Shown here: piece after piece, positions 14,301 to 45,362 of the stretch | How the letters are laid out: each line of letters opens with the position of its first letter | How positions within the stretch are numbered: the stretch's first letter is position 1 | Notes under the pieces: model-generated | Told to the model about the DNA's origin: nothing | Seen by the model: the letters and a program-made list of their open reading frames with translations, nothing else | Database searches by the model: none | Translations under genes and position numbers: made by a program | Assembly: GCA_023265395.1 (NCBI GenBank) | Contig: JAHFTX010000004.1 | Span: 1 to 64,000, forward strand | DNA: 64,000 bases | Direction of reading: 5' to 3' | DNA from: Thermoplasmata archaeon | Lineage (GTDB): Archaea; Thermoplasmatota; DTKX01; JAHFTX01

Positions 14301-15223
14301 CGCTCTATCAGCTCGACCGCCTCGACGAGGCCATCGCCGCCTACCAGGCGGCACTCAAGCACAACCCCGAGTTCGCTCAGGCCGAACACAACCTCGGCAA
14401 CGCCTTCTCCCAGAAGGGCACCTTCGCGGAGGCGATCGCCCACTACGACCGGGCGCTGCAGCTGCGCCCCAACGTCCCACCGATCTGGGTCAGCAAGGGC
14501 AACGCTCTGCGCGACCTCAAGCGCTACGACGAGGCGATCAAGGCGTACGACGAGGCGTTGGCGATCAAGGCCGATTACCAGAAGGCTTGGGCGGGCAAGG
14601 GGACGGTCCACAGCGCCAAGCGGAACTACCGCGAGGCGATCGCCGCCTACGACAAGGCCCTCAAGCTCGACGACAATGACGAACACTGCTGGAACAATCG
14701 CGGCTTCGCGCTGGCTGAACTGGGGCGCTACGACGACGCGATCAAGGCCTATGAGAAGGCCATCAGCCTCGATGCGCAATTCGCCGAGGCCTACAACAAC
14801 AAGGGGAACGCCCTGACCTCACTGGGCAAGGTCGAGGAGGCGCTGCGCTACTACGACAAGGCCCTTGAGATCGACCCCGACCACGCCAAGGGCTGGAACA
14901 GCCGCGGCGCTGCGCTGCGCAAGCTCGACCGGCACGAGGAGGCCTACGCATGTTTCAACAAGGCCACCCAGGTGGAGCCGGAGTTCCTCGAGGCCTGGCT
15001 CAACAAGGGGGCTGCGCTGTTCAACCTCAGCCGTTTCGACGAGGCCATCGCCGCCTACAAGGGTGCCCTCAAGCTCGAGGAGGGCTCCGAGGACGGCTGG
15101 TTGGGGCTTGCCAATGCCCAACGGCATTCCGGTGACAAGGCCGCGGCCAAGACCTCCTACGAGCGGGTGCTGCGCATCAACCCCAACCACACCGAGGCCA
15201 AGCGCGAGCTGACGGCCCTCTAG
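8309..15223 (+). CDS. Giant zinc-ribbon TPR-repeat protein (2304 aa)
   Basis: The protein begins with a four-cysteine zinc ribbon (Cys4, Cys7, Cys18, Cys21) and continues after a ~150-residue linker into roughly sixty tandem 34-residue tetratricopeptide repeats that run to the C-terminus. The repeats follow the TPR consensus (for example AWNNKGNALFQLGDHDGAVA, then CFDRAIAINP) and are very regular; many share AWYNKG and CYDKAIE. TPRs form a superhelical protein-binding scaffold, and no catalytic domain, signal peptide or membrane segment is seen, so a cytoplasmic scaffold is likely. ATG 8309 is chosen because the zinc ribbon follows at once; an in-frame GTG at 8291 would add six residues. A small TPR gene and a PIN-TPR gene follow with a 15-base gap and a 4-base overlap, suggesting one operon. 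The binding partner is unknown. Confidence 0.9.
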   Translation: MVTCSNCGADNPPGALKCAGCNSALPRGGGIGGQGLIRGRGLERKRPTVTKAAVEVGPTVYGEDVSFTGGADTLRQIKNTNIDDLSESEFGSIVRQWNTILTQLEVPVVMDRETKLELKRGDRQLVELLATKLKEGNTRFNRWLGIEETYLRMGNAIYLSRLERDESVKRGEPSTIDEQVFSYEQAIIFYDAALSVKSDYDEAWNAKGKAYERLRRFEEAITCYDKARGLKPYNEEAYNNLGNALSELGRYDEALKMYEKVIELKPEYEEPWNNKGYVLGCQGKFEEAIACYDKAIALNGEYEVAWNNKGFALASSAQRLRTARRNDEAQKAFHEAIICYDKAIAIQEDYEEAWNNKGNALFQLGDHDGAVACFDRAIAINPRYDKAWYNKGSALGARKQFDAAIECYDKAIEADPHYSKAYNNKGNALYNLGRTEEAIACYDLAIRYETDFAQAHNNKGNALYSLNRVDEAITSYDEAIRINPRYDKAWYNKGNAAYNQGRTELAIECYDRVIKLDPNHKKAWSNKGYALSNIGRHKEALECFDRTLALDPRYEAAYNYKGDALYALGRFDEALAQFDKALGLRGDFEEAWNNKGITLHEMGRYEEAIVAFDRAIEVKGDFESAWFNKGSSLFHLRRLDEAIVAFDKVIALDQNHESAWYSKGRAMLGQEKIEAAIRCFDRAIEINGDYEAAWHQKGNAMLSLGLADPALQCFNKVIEFSPESEEAWFGRGRAFALSGKHKKAEECFDKVLSIRSTNHEAWLHKGRLLASLDRQDEAILCFDKSIGLQPTFGAGWRARGSALLTLGRHAEAVAAFDKAIEVDKGDEEAWHLKGNAMRALGQLEAAVACFDRVLELRIGHQGAWKGKGDVLGSLGRHEEALSCFDRALELGGEDQVLWNTKGLTLIALGRPEESLGAFDRAIEISGGYNEAWYNKGLALSALGQESASVDRGRLDDALACFDKAVSLTPHDLQAWNRKGEVFLALGKPKEALACLDKALAIDGAVALTHHNRGRALAALNRHEDALAAFQQAIKLDPALAAAHFALGRSLVALGRQQEALPAFDAALRADDKLSAAWKEKGLALQSLGRMDEAVAAFDRAAAGGDSGVWMSKGEALFAAGRFVEAADSFGKVAAAEPTNVTALLRRAQALQKGGDLVAALQAYQKVIEKDRNNLVVWNAIGGILLGLGRNEDALKAFGEVLRIKSDDAEGLYNSGDALRRLGRTDDALATFDRAVKLNAGHALSWAGKGDLELQLGKHKDAVASFSRALDLKVDLVGAWVGKGIALRALNRTAEAVPAFEQALALAPSDARAWYEKGECHSAEGQTELALAAFQKAAQLDAKHPRAFSRAADCLLTLGRHAEALSAYDKALQSDDTDPVVHNRRGQALAALGHDDEALVAFSRAIALKADFSDAHANKGLVFKAKRQFVAAVEAFSEAITLNDRNHATWNQLGEVLVLVDKPKEALKAFERALSIEARFLPALLNRASVLAARGEWELAVIACDAALAVEGGSVAALVGKGTALASLKRHEEALAAFDRALSHAPQHVAALRGRAQTLAALGKHAEAVGAYETLLKVESNAEGLVAKAVSLLALGRHDEGVQALGAALQADPQNWQAYFHLGDCLKALKKLEEAVSAYDRSLSRNGKQPRAHFARGDALEALKRPGDALAAYDACLAQDPGHAEAWYRKGMLLRASGRTTDALSCFEKAIEFDPKHASAWSAKGGVLGELGRPAEADAALAKSLELNPDAGGVWKRRGMALYEQGKATEALEAFEKELASNPADVESWYNKGSLLFEMERFDDARGSFDKVLQLNPKHAFAHSDKGRSLYMLEQLEEALASFRKAVEIDPDYLQGWTNMEVTLLDLKRTEETLPCYDQQIRLQPAEPTPMFNKALALRALQRNDEALQMLDRALSKNDQLEEVWAEKGSLLYALKKTDEALKAFDKVLGLNPDNVQAWNDKGSILYKRNEFQKAVDCYDQALRRQEDFVECHNNRGSALYQLDRLDEAIAAYQAALKHNPEFAQAEHNLGNAFSQKGTFAEAIAHYDRALQLRPNVPPIWVSKGNALRDLKRYDEAIKAYDEALAIKADYQKAWAGKGTVHSAKRNYREAIAAYDKALKLDDNDEHCWNNRGFALAELGRYDDAIKAYEKAISLDAQFAEAYNNKGNALTSLGKVEEALRYYDKALEIDPDHAKGWNSRGAALRKLDRHEEAYACFNKATQVEPEFLEAWLNKGAALFNLSRFDEAIAAYKGALKLEEGSEDGWLGLANAQRHSGDKAAAKTSYERVLRINPNHTEAKRELTAL
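8900..15200 (+). repeat. Array of ~102-bp TPR-coding direct repeats
   Basis: The coding sequence consists of diverged direct repeats with a 102-bp period (34 codons), recognisable by recurring AACAACAAGGGC- and GACAAGGCC-type blocks. Similarity between units is high enough to allow slippage or recombination and could cause collapsed assembly. Confidence 0.85.
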
Positions 15224-39561: not shown

Positions 39562-40362
39562 TTACCGGTTCCAATACCGTGCCTGCGGGTGCAGTGTCAC
39601 GACCGCCGCCGTCGACTGCTCGGGCAGCCACGCCGCGCCGGCGGTGAGCTCCAACCCGATGCGCGAGGTCTGCAGCAGGCGCTCGACGATCCGCTGCTCC
39701 TCCGTGCTGGGGCAGCTGGGGTAGCCCCAACTGTAGCGCTTGCCGACGGCGGTGGGCAGACGGAGCTGCGTGCGCACACGTCGGTGGGTCCACTCGGCGG
39801 CCGCCTCAGCCAGCTCGACGGCAAGGCCGTGCAGGTAGAGGTACTCGGTGTAGTCGTCGGCCGCCATCAACGCGTCGCAGGCGATGGTCGCTCCTGGGCC
39901 GACCGTGACCGCCTGCAGGGGCAGCACCTGCAATCCCGAGGGATGGTCGGTGGCGAAGTAATCGGCGACCGAGGTCCCTTCGCGGCCACGTGGGAAGGAG
40001 AGCACCGCGTCGGGGGTGCGTTGCGGCGGGGCTATCGATGATCCCTCCTGCGGGGTGGGGATGAACACCTCCAGGCTCTCGCCCCTTGGTCGACACAAGA
40101 AGTACCCGTGCACACCGCGGGGAGTGAGCACACCGCTGGTGCGGTGGGTCTGCTTGAGGCGATCGAGGATGGGCAGGTAGATCCCCTGCCGCAGCCTCTC
40201 CCACTCGGCGGCACTGGCGTTCTTGGGCTTGGCGCGCCACCAGCCTATGAGCAGGTCGTGCTGGTTGATCAGGTCCAGCAGTTCCTCCAGCGGGAGCGGG
40301 TCGATCAGGGCAGTGCCCCAGAAGGGCGGCTCAGCGCGAGGAAGGGGCGGAATGGCTGCCAC
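39562..40362 (-). CDS. Separate MetH activation-domain protein
   Basis: 266 residues homologous to the C-terminal AdoMet-binding reactivation domain of cobalamin-dependent methionine synthase: ADYFATDHPSGLQVLPLQAV, YTEYLYLHGLAVELAEAAAE, and the AdoMet-site strand GKRYSWGYPSCPSTEEQRIV followed by TSRIGLELTAGAAWLPEQST. It rescues oxidised cob(II)alamin by reductive methylation. Here it is a separate gene, as known from Thermotoga. GTG 40362 is chosen because GGAGG lies 9 bases upstream and the region before it has no similarity; the gene overlaps the end of metH by 32 bases, so they are coupled. Confidence 0.88.
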   Translation of the reverse strand: MAAIPPLPRAEPPFWGTALIDPLPLEELLDLINQHDLLIGWWRAKPKNASAAEWERLRQGIYLPILDRLKQTHRTSGVLTPRGVHGYFLCRPRGESLEVFIPTPQEGSSIAPPQRTPDAVLSFPRGREGTSVADYFATDHPSGLQVLPLQAVTVGPGATIACDALMAADDYTEYLYLHGLAVELAEAAAEWTHRRVRTQLRLPTAVGKRYSWGYPSCPSTEEQRIVERLLQTSRIGLELTAGAAWLPEQSTAAVVTLHPQARYWNR

Positions 40363-42967
40363 CGATGCCGACCTCCGCGTGAAGGGTTGCGACGTGGTCG
40401 TCATCGTCGCCGCCGCGTGAGAGGGCCACCAGCTCATCGAGGATGGCCAACCCCTCGAAGGCGTCCTTGGCATAGTGGGCTCCTCCGGCATATCCCTCAC
40501 CAATCCGCCCGACGAAGCGACGGTTGATCGCCGCACCACCGCAGATCAACGGGTAGCGCAGCCCCTGCTCCTGGAGCAGCTTGGCGATCAGGGGCATCTG
40601 CTGGGAGGTGGAGACCAGCAGGGCTGACAGGCCGATGGCATCGGCATCGAGCTCCTTGGCCTTCTCGAGGATCACCGTGGCCGGGACCTGCTTGCCCAAG
40701 TCGACGACCTCGTACCCGTTGTTGACCAGGATGGTCCGCACCAAGTTCTTCCCGATGTCATGGACGTCACCATAGACCGTGGCGAGCACCACGGTACCCT
40801 TGGTGTAGCTGGCGTTGCGCTCGAGCAGCGGCTCGAGGTGGGCGACGGCCACCTTCATCAGCTTGGCGCTCTCGAGGACGAAGGGCAGGGCGATGTTGCC
40901 TGCGCCGAACTGGTCGCCGACGGTGCGCATGGCCGAGATGAGGACATCGTTGATCAGGTCCAGCGGCGGGACGACCTGCCGGGCGTCATCGAGCAGCTGG
41001 ATGAGGGTGCGACGGGCGGTCCCCACCTCCTCCTTGCGATGGACGATGGCGTAGTGGACCGCTTCGGTGGCGGTCAGCTGGTCCTCGGCAGCGAGCTTCT
41101 CCGAGACCCGTCCCTCCTCGGCGGTGCTGTCGGCAAAGTGGCCAAGGAACGCCTCCAGGGCCTTGGGGTGGCGGGCAAAGAGCAGGTCTTCGGTGACCTG
41201 GCGCTCCTCCCGACCGATGTCCGTGATCGGCAGGATATGCTTGGCATCGACGATGGCGGCATCCAACCCGGCCTCGACCGCATGGAACAGCAGCAGCGAG
41301 TTGAGCACGCGCTTGCCGCGGTCGAGGTCGTTGCTCAGACCGAAGCTGCAGTTGCTGATCCCCAGGGAGATGTTGATCTGCGGGTAGGTGGCCTTGATCG
41401 CCCGGATCGCGTCGAGGGTCTGGACCCCGGCGTCGGCGTAGGCAGGGTCGCCCGTGACCAGGGGGAAGGTCAACGGGTCGATGATGAGGTCGTGCACCGG
41501 CACGCCATACTCCTTAGCGAGCCCCACGAGCCGGTCGGTGACCTCGCACTTGCGCGCAGCGCTCAGCGCCATCCCCGCGCTGTCGATGGTCAGACCCACG
41601 ACCAGGGCGCCATGGTCGCGGACGACCTCGAGGATGCGACGGCCCTTCTGCTCATCCTCGAGGTTGAAAGAGTTGACCACCGCGCGACCGGGGAAGCGCT
41701 CCAGTGCGGCGGCGATGACCTCTGGTTCGGTGCTGTCGATCTGCAGGGACGCGTCGACGGAGCCGCCGTCGGAGCGCCAGAGCGCGTCGACCGCGAACTG
41801 GACGCACGCGAGCTCCTCGAGGTCGTTGTGGGCGGCGGTCAGGTCGAGCAGCTGCGCACCGCTGTCGACCTGCTTCTTGGCGATCGCCCGGATCGCCGCG
41901 GCATCCCGCGCCGCGAAGGCCTCGCGGGTGCGGCCGTAGCCCAGTGCGTTGAGCCGTTCGCCGATGAGCAGGGGCGGGGGGTCCTGGCGCACGGACACCC
42001 GGCGGAAGGGGGAGCTGATGCCGGCAGCAGGACGGGTGACCGTGCGCCGCGGCTGCAGCCCGTCGACGCCGTCCCGCAACAGCCGGATGTGCTGCGGCGT
42101 CGTACCACAGCAGCCGCCGACGAAGTTGATGCCCAGCTCCTCGACGTAACGCCGCAGCGTACGCTCCATCTCCTGGGCGGTCAGGCCGTAGAAGGAGCGT
42201 CCGTCGACGTTCTCGGGGATCCCGGCGTTGGGGATGCAGCTGACCGGCAGGTCGGTGTGGCTGCTGAGGTAGCGCAGGGCATCCTCCATCTCGATCGGGC
42301 CGGTCGAGCAGTTGAGCCCGACCGCATCGACGGGGAGTCGCTCGATGAGGCTGAGCAGCGCGCTCATCTCGGTGCCCAGGAGCATGCGCCCCTGCTGGAC
42401 CGAGACCGAGATCATCACCGGCAGCCGGGCGGGCAGCTGCGCGTTGACCACTGCAAGCCCGGCGATGGCCGCCTTGACCTCAAGGAGGTCCTGCGAGGTC
42501 TCGACGAGGAAGAGGTCGACGCCCCCCTTGGCCAGCGCCCGCCCCTGGGCGGCGACGCAGTCGCGCAAGGTGGCGTAGTCGGACTGACCAAGCGAGGGGA
42601 GCAACCCCGTCGGGCCGATGCTCCCAGCGATCCAGTGGGGGCCGGGCGCGCCCACCGCAGCGATCGCAGCACGCGCCAGCTCCACGGCGGCGACGTTAAC
42701 CTCCTCGAGCCGGTCACCCAGCCCATACTCGCGGAGCTTGGGCAGGTTGCCGCCGAAGGTGTTGGTCTCGAGGACTTCGGCGCCCGCACGCAGGAAGTCC
42801 TCGTGGATCCCTTGGATCATCGATGGCTGGACGAGGTTGAGGTAGTCGTTGCACCCAAGCTTGCCGCCATAGGTCTGTTCCGTCGGGCGGTGCGCTTGAA
42901 TAGAGGTCCCCATCGCGCCATCGAACACCACGACCCGCCGACGGGCCTCGCGCAGCAGGTCGGTCAT
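40331..42967 (-). CDS. metH: Cobalamin-dependent methionine synthase, catalytic part
   Basis: Transfers methyl from methyl-tetrahydrofolate (or tetrahydropterin) via methylcobalamin to homocysteine. Of 878 residues, the first ~300 are the homocysteine-binding domain with zinc ligands Cys220 (VGLNCSTGP) and GGCCGT (284-289); ~335-600 is the pterin-binding domain (SGAQLLDLTAAHNDLEELAC, VVNSFNLEDEQKGRRI); then a four-helix cap; then the B12 domain with GDVHDIGKN (His736 as cobalt ligand), SALLVSTS and LICGGAAI. The fourth activation domain is missing and is encoded next door (39562-40362). ATG 42967 follows AGAGG by 6 bases. Canonical MetH is uncommon in archaea. Confidence 0.95.
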   Translation of the reverse strand: MTDLLREARRRVVVFDGAMGTSIQAHRPTEQTYGGKLGCNDYLNLVQPSMIQGIHEDFLRAGAEVLETNTFGGNLPKLREYGLGDRLEEVNVAAVELARAAIAAVGAPGPHWIAGSIGPTGLLPSLGQSDYATLRDCVAAQGRALAKGGVDLFLVETSQDLLEVKAAIAGLAVVNAQLPARLPVMISVSVQQGRMLLGTEMSALLSLIERLPVDAVGLNCSTGPIEMEDALRYLSSHTDLPVSCIPNAGIPENVDGRSFYGLTAQEMERTLRRYVEELGINFVGGCCGTTPQHIRLLRDGVDGLQPRRTVTRPAAGISSPFRRVSVRQDPPPLLIGERLNALGYGRTREAFAARDAAAIRAIAKKQVDSGAQLLDLTAAHNDLEELACVQFAVDALWRSDGGSVDASLQIDSTEPEVIAAALERFPGRAVVNSFNLEDEQKGRRILEVVRDHGALVVGLTIDSAGMALSAARKCEVTDRLVGLAKEYGVPVHDLIIDPLTFPLVTGDPAYADAGVQTLDAIRAIKATYPQINISLGISNCSFGLSNDLDRGKRVLNSLLLFHAVEAGLDAAIVDAKHILPITDIGREERQVTEDLLFARHPKALEAFLGHFADSTAEEGRVSEKLAAEDQLTATEAVHYAIVHRKEEVGTARRTLIQLLDDARQVVPPLDLINDVLISAMRTVGDQFGAGNIALPFVLESAKLMKVAVAHLEPLLERNASYTKGTVVLATVYGDVHDIGKNLVRTILVNNGYEVVDLGKQVPATVILEKAKELDADAIGLSALLVSTSQQMPLIAKLLQEQGLRYPLICGGAAINRRFVGRIGEGYAGGAHYAKDAFEGLAILDELVALSRGGDDDDHVATLHAEVGIGGSHSAPSSR

Positions 42968-43250
42968 GGACGCCTCTAGAGGCAACAGCCTTCGCCACAG
43001 CTGCCACCGGGCGGCGTGATTGGCACCTTCGGGGGGTGTGCCCCGCGAGCGAGTCGTCCCATGCCTTCCCCCTTGGATGCCAACGACTTAAGCATAACGT
43101 GCATAACCGCTGATAAATACGCAACTATGAGTAGTGCTTTGCCCCGTCCCTCCAGGACACCCTCGGAGATGGATCCCCCGGCTGAGGACCAGCCGCGGGG
43201 ACAAGAACACTCATGCCCACCGCCGACTGGTCACCACAGAGGATTGCGGC
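42968..43250. promoter_or_regulatory. Divergent promoter region between metH and a secreted protease
   Basis: Contains an AT-rich core: GATAAATA (43112-43119, readable as TATTTATC on the minus strand) and ACTTAAGC (43086-43093), both possible TATA boxes. A 7-base direct repeat, GCATAAC at 43092-43098 and 43101-43107 (period 9), lies next to them and is a candidate operator. The metH leader (~90-120 bases) has small GC hairpins but no riboswitch I can identify. Confidence 0.45.
43092..43107. repeat. Short direct repeat GCATAAC x2, possible operator
   Basis: Two exact 7-base copies with a 2-base spacer, overlapping the predicted core promoter. A two-copy repeat at 9-base period is small for a helical-phase operator, so this may be chance. 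Confidence 0.35.
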
Positions 43251-45056
43251 ATGTTCGCGCGCGGCGGAGTGCTGGTGCTGGCAGCGATGGTGCTGCTACC
43301 GGCAGCGATCCCAGCGATCGCTGAGGGGCCCCTGGCGACCCTCGGCAACGTCGAGGGACCAGGCCGCACCACGTTGCTGCGGCCCGTCCACGTCCCATCC
43401 ATCCGCGCGACGACCAGTGCCAACGACGCCTCCCTCCCCTGGTGGGAGCGCACGTCGATGGACCTCGACCGCGATGGTCTGGCTGATTCTCTGGAGCTAC
43501 GACTCGATGCTGCCCTCTCCCCCTCGCCCGCCGTGACCGAGGAGGGAGCGCACCAGCTGTGGCCGCGATTGCCCCTCGACGCTCCGTTGCAGGTCTTCGT
43601 CGACACCGATGGCGACCCGACCGATTGGCAAGTGGAGGCAATCGCTGCGCTGGGGTTGGATGTCGTCGAGAGATTCGACTTCGTCGACGCCATCCAAGTC
43701 AACGACGTGCCGCCCCAGGCGATCCCTGACCTGCTGAGGATCGACGGGGTCGTCTTCGTCGAGCCGCGTGGGGTGCCAGTGCTCGCTGGAGACATCCAGA
43801 CCCCCTCCAACAAGGTGCGCGACTCGGTCGAGTACTCGCCCTCCACCGCCTGGGATCTCGGCTACCTCGGCCGCAACGTGTCGATCGCCATCATGGACAC
43901 CGGCGTCGACAACGGCCATCCCAGCTACGCCGGCAAGTGGCTCGGCGGGGTCGACGTCAGCAAGCCCGAGACCCCGCTCTGGCCCCGCGACGGCACCTTC
44001 GACGCCGACGATACGCAAGGGCACGCCACCAGCTGCACGGGGATGGCCATGGGCACAGGAGCCCCCGAGGGCACCTACATGGGGGCCGCCCCCGAGGCCA
44101 AGCTCGTCGACCTCCGGATCGGCACGATCTTCGGTGCCGCCCCCGGCGAGGGACCGCAGAACGTCTACGACGCGACCATCCAGGGGACCCAGTGGGCGAT
44201 CACCCACAAGGACGACACGTGGGCGGGTGCCTCTCCTGAGTACTCCGGCATCGAGGTGCTCTCGCTCTCGTGGGGCAACAACGTCGGGGGCAGCTCCGAC
44301 GGCACCGACGTCTACAGCCGCGGCATGACCCAGCTGGTCAACGCCGGCATCGTCGCAGCGGTCGCTGCAGGCAACGCTGGGCCCGACAACGACGGCTTCG
44401 ATGGCCTGGGGAGCTCCGACGAGGTGATCACTATCGGCGCTACCGACGACCAGAACACGATCAACCGTACCGACGACGTCATCGCCGATTACAGCAGCCG
44501 CGGCCCGCGTCGCGACGACGGCGACGGCTACCCCTACGACGAGCTCAAGCCCGACGTCTCCTCCAGCGGCACCGATATCATCCAGGCCAACTTCGACCGC
44601 TTCGGCGATGGCAGCAGCGGCACCTACGGCCCGCGCGGCAGCGGCACCAGCTATGCGACCCCCGCCGTGGCCGGCACCATCGCCGTGATGCGGGAGGCCA
44701 ACACCAACCTCACGCCAGCGGTGACCAAGGAGATCCTGCGGCGCACCGCCGAGCGCCGTGGCGATGCCTTCGACCCCGAGGTCGACCCGTTCTGGAACAA
44801 GGACTTCGGCTGGGGGATCATCGACGGCTACCGCGCCACCAAGCTCGCGTCGGAGATCGATGATGTCTCGGCCATCGACGTCGAAGTGCAGACCTTCATC
44901 ACCAACGTCACCGTCGGCAGCAGCGCGCTGACCGTCTCGGGGGTCGCCTGGCACCGTGTCGGTGAGGAGCTTCGCGCCGTCGAGGTCCGGATCGACGACG
45001 GGCCGTGGCTGCAGGCGCGCGACGAGGGCGTCGACACCACCTTCCAGAACTGGTAG
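43251..45056 (+). CDS. Secreted subtilisin-like protease (S8), ends at an in-frame TAG
   Basis: 601 residues. Signal peptide MFARGGVLVLAAMVLLPAAI, short calcium-type acidic motif (MDLDRDGLADSLELRL), an inhibitor-like propeptide (~100-195), then the catalytic domain with Asp216 (IAIMDTGVDNG), His258 (DTQGHATSCTG), the oxyanion Asn in AVAAGNAGPD and Ser467 (GSGTSYATPAVAG). After the catalytic domain (~residue 555) a beta-sandwich begins (VTVGSSALTVSGVAWHRVGE) and is broken at codon 602 by TAG. The same frame stays open for 101 more codons and encodes a transmembrane helix. ATG 43251 follows AGAGGA by 8 bases. The product as terminated would be secreted without anchor. Confidence 0.9.
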   Translation: MFARGGVLVLAAMVLLPAAIPAIAEGPLATLGNVEGPGRTTLLRPVHVPSIRATTSANDASLPWWERTSMDLDRDGLADSLELRLDAALSPSPAVTEEGAHQLWPRLPLDAPLQVFVDTDGDPTDWQVEAIAALGLDVVERFDFVDAIQVNDVPPQAIPDLLRIDGVVFVEPRGVPVLAGDIQTPSNKVRDSVEYSPSTAWDLGYLGRNVSIAIMDTGVDNGHPSYAGKWLGGVDVSKPETPLWPRDGTFDADDTQGHATSCTGMAMGTGAPEGTYMGAAPEAKLVDLRIGTIFGAAPGEGPQNVYDATIQGTQWAITHKDDTWAGASPEYSGIEVLSLSWGNNVGGSSDGTDVYSRGMTQLVNAGIVAAVAAGNAGPDNDGFDGLGSSDEVITIGATDDQNTINRTDDVIADYSSRGPRRDDGDGYPYDELKPDVSSSGTDIIQANFDRFGDGSSGTYGPRGSGTSYATPAVAGTIAVMREANTNLTPAVTKEILRRTAERRGDAFDPEVDPFWNKDFGWGIIDGYRATKLASEIDDVSAIDVEVQTFITNVTVGSSALTVSGVAWHRVGEELRAVEVRIDDGPWLQARDEGVDTTFQNW

Positions 45057-45362
45057 GTCAAGATGCCACTTGCCGGACAGGCGGTGGGCAACCACACCGT
45101 GCAGGCGCGAGCGATCACCGAGGGCGCGGTCGGGTTGCACGACGAGTCCACCTTCACCCTGACCTCACCACCCTCGGCGACGAGCTCCAGCGTCGGCTCG
45201 GGTTGGCTCCTGTGGTTCCTTGGCGCGCTGGTGATGGGTGCCGCGATCTTCGTGACCTATCGGCACCTGCGGAACCGCCGTCTGCGCCCGACCCTCGCCC
45301 AAGAGGTCGGGAGCGAGCCAGCACCGGCCCACGCCGACCCCGCCGACGTCGTGGAGCGGTAG
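45057..45362 (+). other. In-frame continuation of the protease after TAG: beta domain end, TM helix, tail
   Basis: Directly after the TAG at 45054-45056 the same frame runs 101 codons to another TAG: it completes the sandwich (GNHTVQARAITEGAVGLHDE, then STFTLTS), then a transmembrane helix (WLLWFLGALVMGAAIFVTY) and a basic/acidic cytoplasmic tail. This matches the layout of other anchored surface proteins in the window, so the TAG most likely replaced a Trp or Tyr codon (NW*VKMP). Readthrough, a strain-specific truncation or a sequencing error are all possible. Independent start at ATG 45063 would lack a signal peptide. Confidence 0.8.

Follow-up and report, generated by a model that had tools for sequence, protein, structure and literature searches.

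A subtilisin-like protease gene with an in-frame TAG

The window analysed here comprises bases 1–64,000 of a GC-rich contig of 117,480 bases (C57) from a draft archaeal genome (2.78 Mb in 75 contigs, 88.7% complete), the named relatives of which belong to the Thermoplasmatota. On its forward strand, a reading frame starting at the ATG at 43251 runs for 601 codons to a TAG and then stays open for a further 101 codons to a second TAG at 45360–45362. The earlier note had placed the first stop at codon 602 with an open frame of this length behind it, and these coordinates proved exact. The features of the locus are as follows:

43251–45056, + strand: open reading frame up to the in-frame TAG, 601 aa, with signal peptide, propeptide, Peptidase_S8 catalytic domain and the first strands of a C-terminal beta-sandwich (frame reading, PF00082 match, alignment, AlphaFold2)
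45054–45056, + strand: in-frame TAG at codon 602; each of the 31 aligned relatives has a sense codon here, mostly for Ser or Thr (tblastn, alignment)
45057–45362, + strand: continuation of the same gene, with the remaining beta-sandwich, a membrane helix at about residues 651–677, a basic tail and the final TAG (tblastn, alignment, hydropathy, AlphaFold2)
45063–45362, + strand: possible but unlikely restart frame, 99 aa, from an ATG 6 bases after the TAG (ORF listing)

The product matches the Peptidase_S8 profile PF00082 at residues 207–522 (E = 1.1e-35; 123.8 bits against a curated cut-off of 21.8). This match covers the profile from end to end (positions 1–288 of 288), so the protein is a subtilase. 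D216 and H258 are invariant, and S467 is present in the window protein and in at least 90% of the 31 rows; on the basis of these conserved columns and the S8 pattern, we take the three residues to be the catalytic triad. An AlphaFold2 model of the read-through frame (mean pLDDT 77.8) predicts a propeptide, a subtilisin domain, a beta-sandwich whose strands span 546–637, and a helix at 651–677. The TAG falls within a modelled strand of the C-terminal sandwich (residues 599–606; mean pLDDT 89 for residues 601–610). Matches to solved structures span the subtilisin domain only and leave the tail uncovered. Five of the 31 members scanned have a Pfam match to a bacterial Ig domain (Big_7); the window protein has none.

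In its full-length S8 match, catalytic residues, beta-sandwich, C-terminal membrane helix and basic tail, the read-through protein resembles the archaeal S8 proteases that carry an Ig-like domain and an anchor. It differs from them in being broken at codon 602 and, compared with the 31 other members, in having Ala at position 259, directly after the catalytic His, where all 31 have Gly. On the opposite strand upstream, at 40331–42985, lies a gene for a methionine-synthase-like protein that combines a homocysteine methyltransferase domain with pterin-binding and B12-binding domains; no reactivation domain is among its Pfam matches.

Conservation of the sequence beyond the stop

That the frame stays open for 101 codons is by itself weak evidence for a genuine tail. 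On both strands of the contig, 543 of 3673 stop codons are followed by an open frame of at least this length, and 40 of these also score at least 17 on codon usage over those 101 codons, a group that includes true gene starts; the window tail scores 26.4. We consider the tail real because of homology across the stop rather than because of the open frame. The tblastn alignments of relatives with the window protein cross the stop into the tail. At column 602, where the earlier note had proposed that an alignment would reveal the missing residue, all 31 relatives have a sense codon: Ser in 11, Thr in 10, Arg in three, Lys, Val and Asn in two each, and His in one. None of them ends at this position, as the note had envisaged orthologues might. 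The Trp directly before the TAG column is kept in 28 of the 31 rows.

The alignment set was made up of 31 relatives, the intact paralogue from this genome among them; at most 30 of the 31 are different, since L014 and L040 do not differ from each other in the catalytic stretch. This set omits weaker or partial tblastn rows (L003, L004, L031–L036, L044 and L045) as well as L001 and L007, which are self copies; L046 and L047 gave no match at the cut-off. L015, a homologue with a TAG of its own, was included in the identity, column, branch-length and helix analyses and is absent from the alignment used for the triad columns (A1).

A C-terminal membrane helix is present in 30 of the 31 relatives at a mean hydropathy of at least 1.6, the exception being L009 at 1.24. 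The window tail reaches 1.96; in the truncated 601-residue form, the best stretch after the signal peptide scores 1.22, and none there reaches the cut-off for a helix. Given the helix in nearly all relatives and in the window tail, the ancestral form was most likely membrane-anchored, and the stop would take the anchor away. The earlier description of the region after the TAG as the rest of a beta-sandwich, a transmembrane helix and a cytoplasmic tail thus agrees with the model helix, the hydropathy and the basic C-terminus.

The genome encodes an intact paralogue on contig C6 (701 aa, 49% identical to the window gene), which has no in-frame stop and terminates at a TAG of its own. The nearest genes from the same class, L008 and L009 (genomes G002 and G004), likewise continue into the sandwich tail and a basic C-terminus. 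Neither has an in-frame propeptide, and the catalytic domain of L008 follows almost directly after a short signal peptide. Over residues 603–680, the window tail is 34.2% identical to that of L008 (73 columns), compared with 33.8% between L008 and L009 (74 columns). Conservation of the tail is roughly on a par with that in intact relatives, so the break looks recent.

The catalytic domain of the window protein is more distant, at 66.3% identity against 78.6% between L008 and L009, and its end branch of 0.40 falls within the 0.33–0.41 of L010, L037 and L038. Among catalytic columns conserved at 85% or more, the window protein departs at 11 of 133, including position 259; positions 259 and 438 are both invariant in all 31 other members. 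With a less strict cut, 25 of 175 catalytic columns differ in the window protein, against 14 of 175 in L008, 16 of 175 in L009 and 32 of 173 in the paralogue. One of the two highly conserved tail positions is changed (position 628, Gly against Ser in all 31 others), which gives a weak hint of relaxed constraint. Taken together, the departures at 628 and in the catalytic columns hint at drift rather than prove it, and the gene appears free of signs of long neglect.

Reading of TAG in this genome

TAG is an ordinary stop in this genome and the commonest among our heuristic gene calls on the contig, where it ends 41 of 75 genes, followed by TGA (31) and TAA (3). We rejected recoding of TAG throughout the genome on these counts, which include both halves of the protease gene. 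Ten stops on the contig have coding signal on both sides; five mark borders between tandem genes, four have a predicted gene across from them on the complementary strand, and only the TAG at 45054 lies inside a gene. Tandem genes parted by a single in-frame TAG are found at 15221 and 27967 of the window and at 98174, 100137, 113582 and 116831 of the contig. At each of them, the downstream frame opens right at the stop; the gene products seem unrelated to one another, and the fit is apparently due to chance spacing.

That the TAG is read as pyrrolysine is the least likely explanation considered, to the point of being negligible. An in-frame TAG in a member of the Thermoplasmatota recalls the pyrrolysine-decoding Methanomassiliicoccales of the class Thermoplasmata, and the pyrrolysyl-tRNA synthetase PylS does pass its cut-off in some Thermoplasmatota (two of the 60 genomes searched, the present one included in the search, both of one family). 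However, the two PylS matches in the present genome reach 22.5 and 20 bits, short of the cut-off of 178.15. Matches of this kind are common at the same E-value limit, occurring in 13 of 14 control genomes, one of which passes the cut-off; at 1e-10, none of four genomes of the same class gave a match. Among the 42 Rfam tRNA matches in the 88.7% complete genome, ARAGORN, run on all loci, found no CUA anticodon; it called one tRNA (L085) as Val(GAC) with an intron, which by eye is a tRNA-Phe and does not read TAG. Because no synthetase passes the cut-off and no CUA tRNA was found, pyrrolysine insertion or amber suppression is unsupported, with the reservation that such gaps in an incomplete genome are not proof of absence. 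In contrast to the case of the Methanomassiliicoccales, this genome uses TAG widely as a stop, and the protein concerned is not a methylamine methyltransferase. At column 602, 21 of the 31 relatives have Ser or Thr.

The earlier note had proposed, as one of two possibilities, that the stop determines whether the protease is secreted or anchored. This holds only in the trivial sense that truncation drops the anchor; a programmed switch found no such backing. Programmed or tolerated UAG readthrough, giving mainly a released form and a minor anchored one, is improbable. In its favour, the tail is no less well preserved than in intact relatives. The available text of Belinky et al. (2021; PMC7918605), which reports many stops within the frames of prokaryotic genes, argues that these genes often are not pseudogenes, though it holds most of the stops to be short-lived. 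Programmed readthrough is recognised by a conserved stop together with a conserved tail, but the stop occurs at column 602 in none of the 31 relatives. Neither a CUA tRNA nor an unusual RNA fold downstream of the TAG was found (z = 0.52 over 60 bases and −0.27 over 100 bases). As far as its available text goes, a review of archaeal recoding (PMC8211752) names selenocysteine and pyrrolysine as the only readthrough events shown in archaea.

The position of the stop also bears on this question. If a secreted form were built in by design, its end would presumably lie in a linker; on the model, the TAG instead lies within strand 599–606 rather than at the edge of a domain, which makes such a programmed form unlikely. 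The more specific notion that readthrough of UAG is tolerated in this lineage, in an archaeon lacking pyrrolysine, so that one gene would yield both a released and a membrane-anchored subtilisin, is more doubtful still. Readthrough, if shown, would give archaea an example beyond selenocysteine and pyrrolysine.

A split gene, in which termination at the TAG is followed by a restart at the ATG 6 bases on, is very improbable. The closeness of the ATG at 45063 to the stop would allow it, but the resulting separate 99-aa membrane peptide would begin in the middle of a beta-strand and have no signal peptide at its start, and none of the 31 aligned relatives is split at codon 602.

Possible origins of the in-frame TAG

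The stop is absent from all 31 relatives and homologous sequence goes on past it, as is found in nonsense-interrupted genes. These observations suggest a single recent nonsense codon, in the form of a strain-level truncation or a young pseudogene, or else a base error in the assembly. We moderately favour the view that the S8 protease gene acquired one nonsense codon in the assembled lineage or strain and is otherwise intact. The suggestion of a fresh pseudogene in the earlier note is in keeping with this view: among the aligned copies, the stop occurs in this genome only, the relatives read through the site, the tail shows no decay and an intact paralogue exists. A sequence error, which the note also named, fits these observations too.

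Under the favoured explanation, the ancestral gene would have encoded a signal-peptide-bearing, C-terminally membrane-anchored subtilisin-like S8 protease of a Thermoplasmatota archaeon, in which one real and recent nonsense codon presumably arose in a lineage or strain. With the TAG working as an ordinary stop, the product would be 601 residues long, with a whole catalytic domain, an incomplete beta-sandwich and no anchor. Such a protein might be released or, as the sandwich is cut in mid-strand, might misfold and be degraded. The intact paralogue could make the loss tolerable. Two points count against this explanation: the scarcity of decay in the tail also fits a tail still in use, and the catalytic-domain changes at 259 and 438 may reflect drift of the gene before the stop arose. 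The gene resembles the in-frame stops described in prokaryotic genes in having one nonsense codon with both sides apparently constrained, and differs from that set, as far as the available text of PMC7918605 describes it, in that it concerns one archaeal gene alone, with no close sister strains. With the terms used, our literature search found no papers on premature stops in metagenome-assembled genomes and, for the subtilisins of the phylum Thermoplasmatota, nothing relevant among the matches listed.

The principal rival, a possibility of real but clearly lesser weight than an acquired nonsense codon, is that the living gene is intact and that the TAG is a base error in the assembled metagenome, or a base that entered the consensus from a minority or from damaged reads. 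The genome is a fragmented and incomplete draft, the TAG is one substitution away from the codon of the paralogue at the same column, the rest of the gene and its tail look normal, and broken copies occur in other drafts. Against this, only one of the ten stops with coding signal on both sides of it lies inside a gene, so the sequence is not visibly error-ridden. Consensus substitution errors are rare. No second allele of the locus was found in the assembly.

The broken copies in other drafts are of two kinds. A homologue from another family (L015 on contig C38 of genome G050; L096) carries an in-frame TAG in its catalytic domain near residue 446, a site at which L016 and L018, from the same genus, have no stop. 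A second subtilisin homologue (L044, 5049–7086) was matched as two pieces in different frames and is thus a frame-split copy. Further candidates for internal stops were rejected, namely a TGA flagged in the homologues of G001 and G003, which is their natural end, and a TAG in a paralogue of G020, which comes straight after the membrane helix and seems to be a natural end too.

If the ordinary explanations hold, the locus adds either another gene copy broken not long ago or a base in a draft genome that deserves checking. Its value is chiefly as a warning that in-frame TAGs in high-GC archaeal drafts are not to be taken as recoding unless accompanied by a tRNA, a synthetase and conservation. 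Elsewhere on the contig, outside the window, the reverse strand at 82288–85485 (L092, L093) holds an open reading frame of 1066 codons, the C-terminal part of which consists of short repeats rich in Asp, Ser and Gly.
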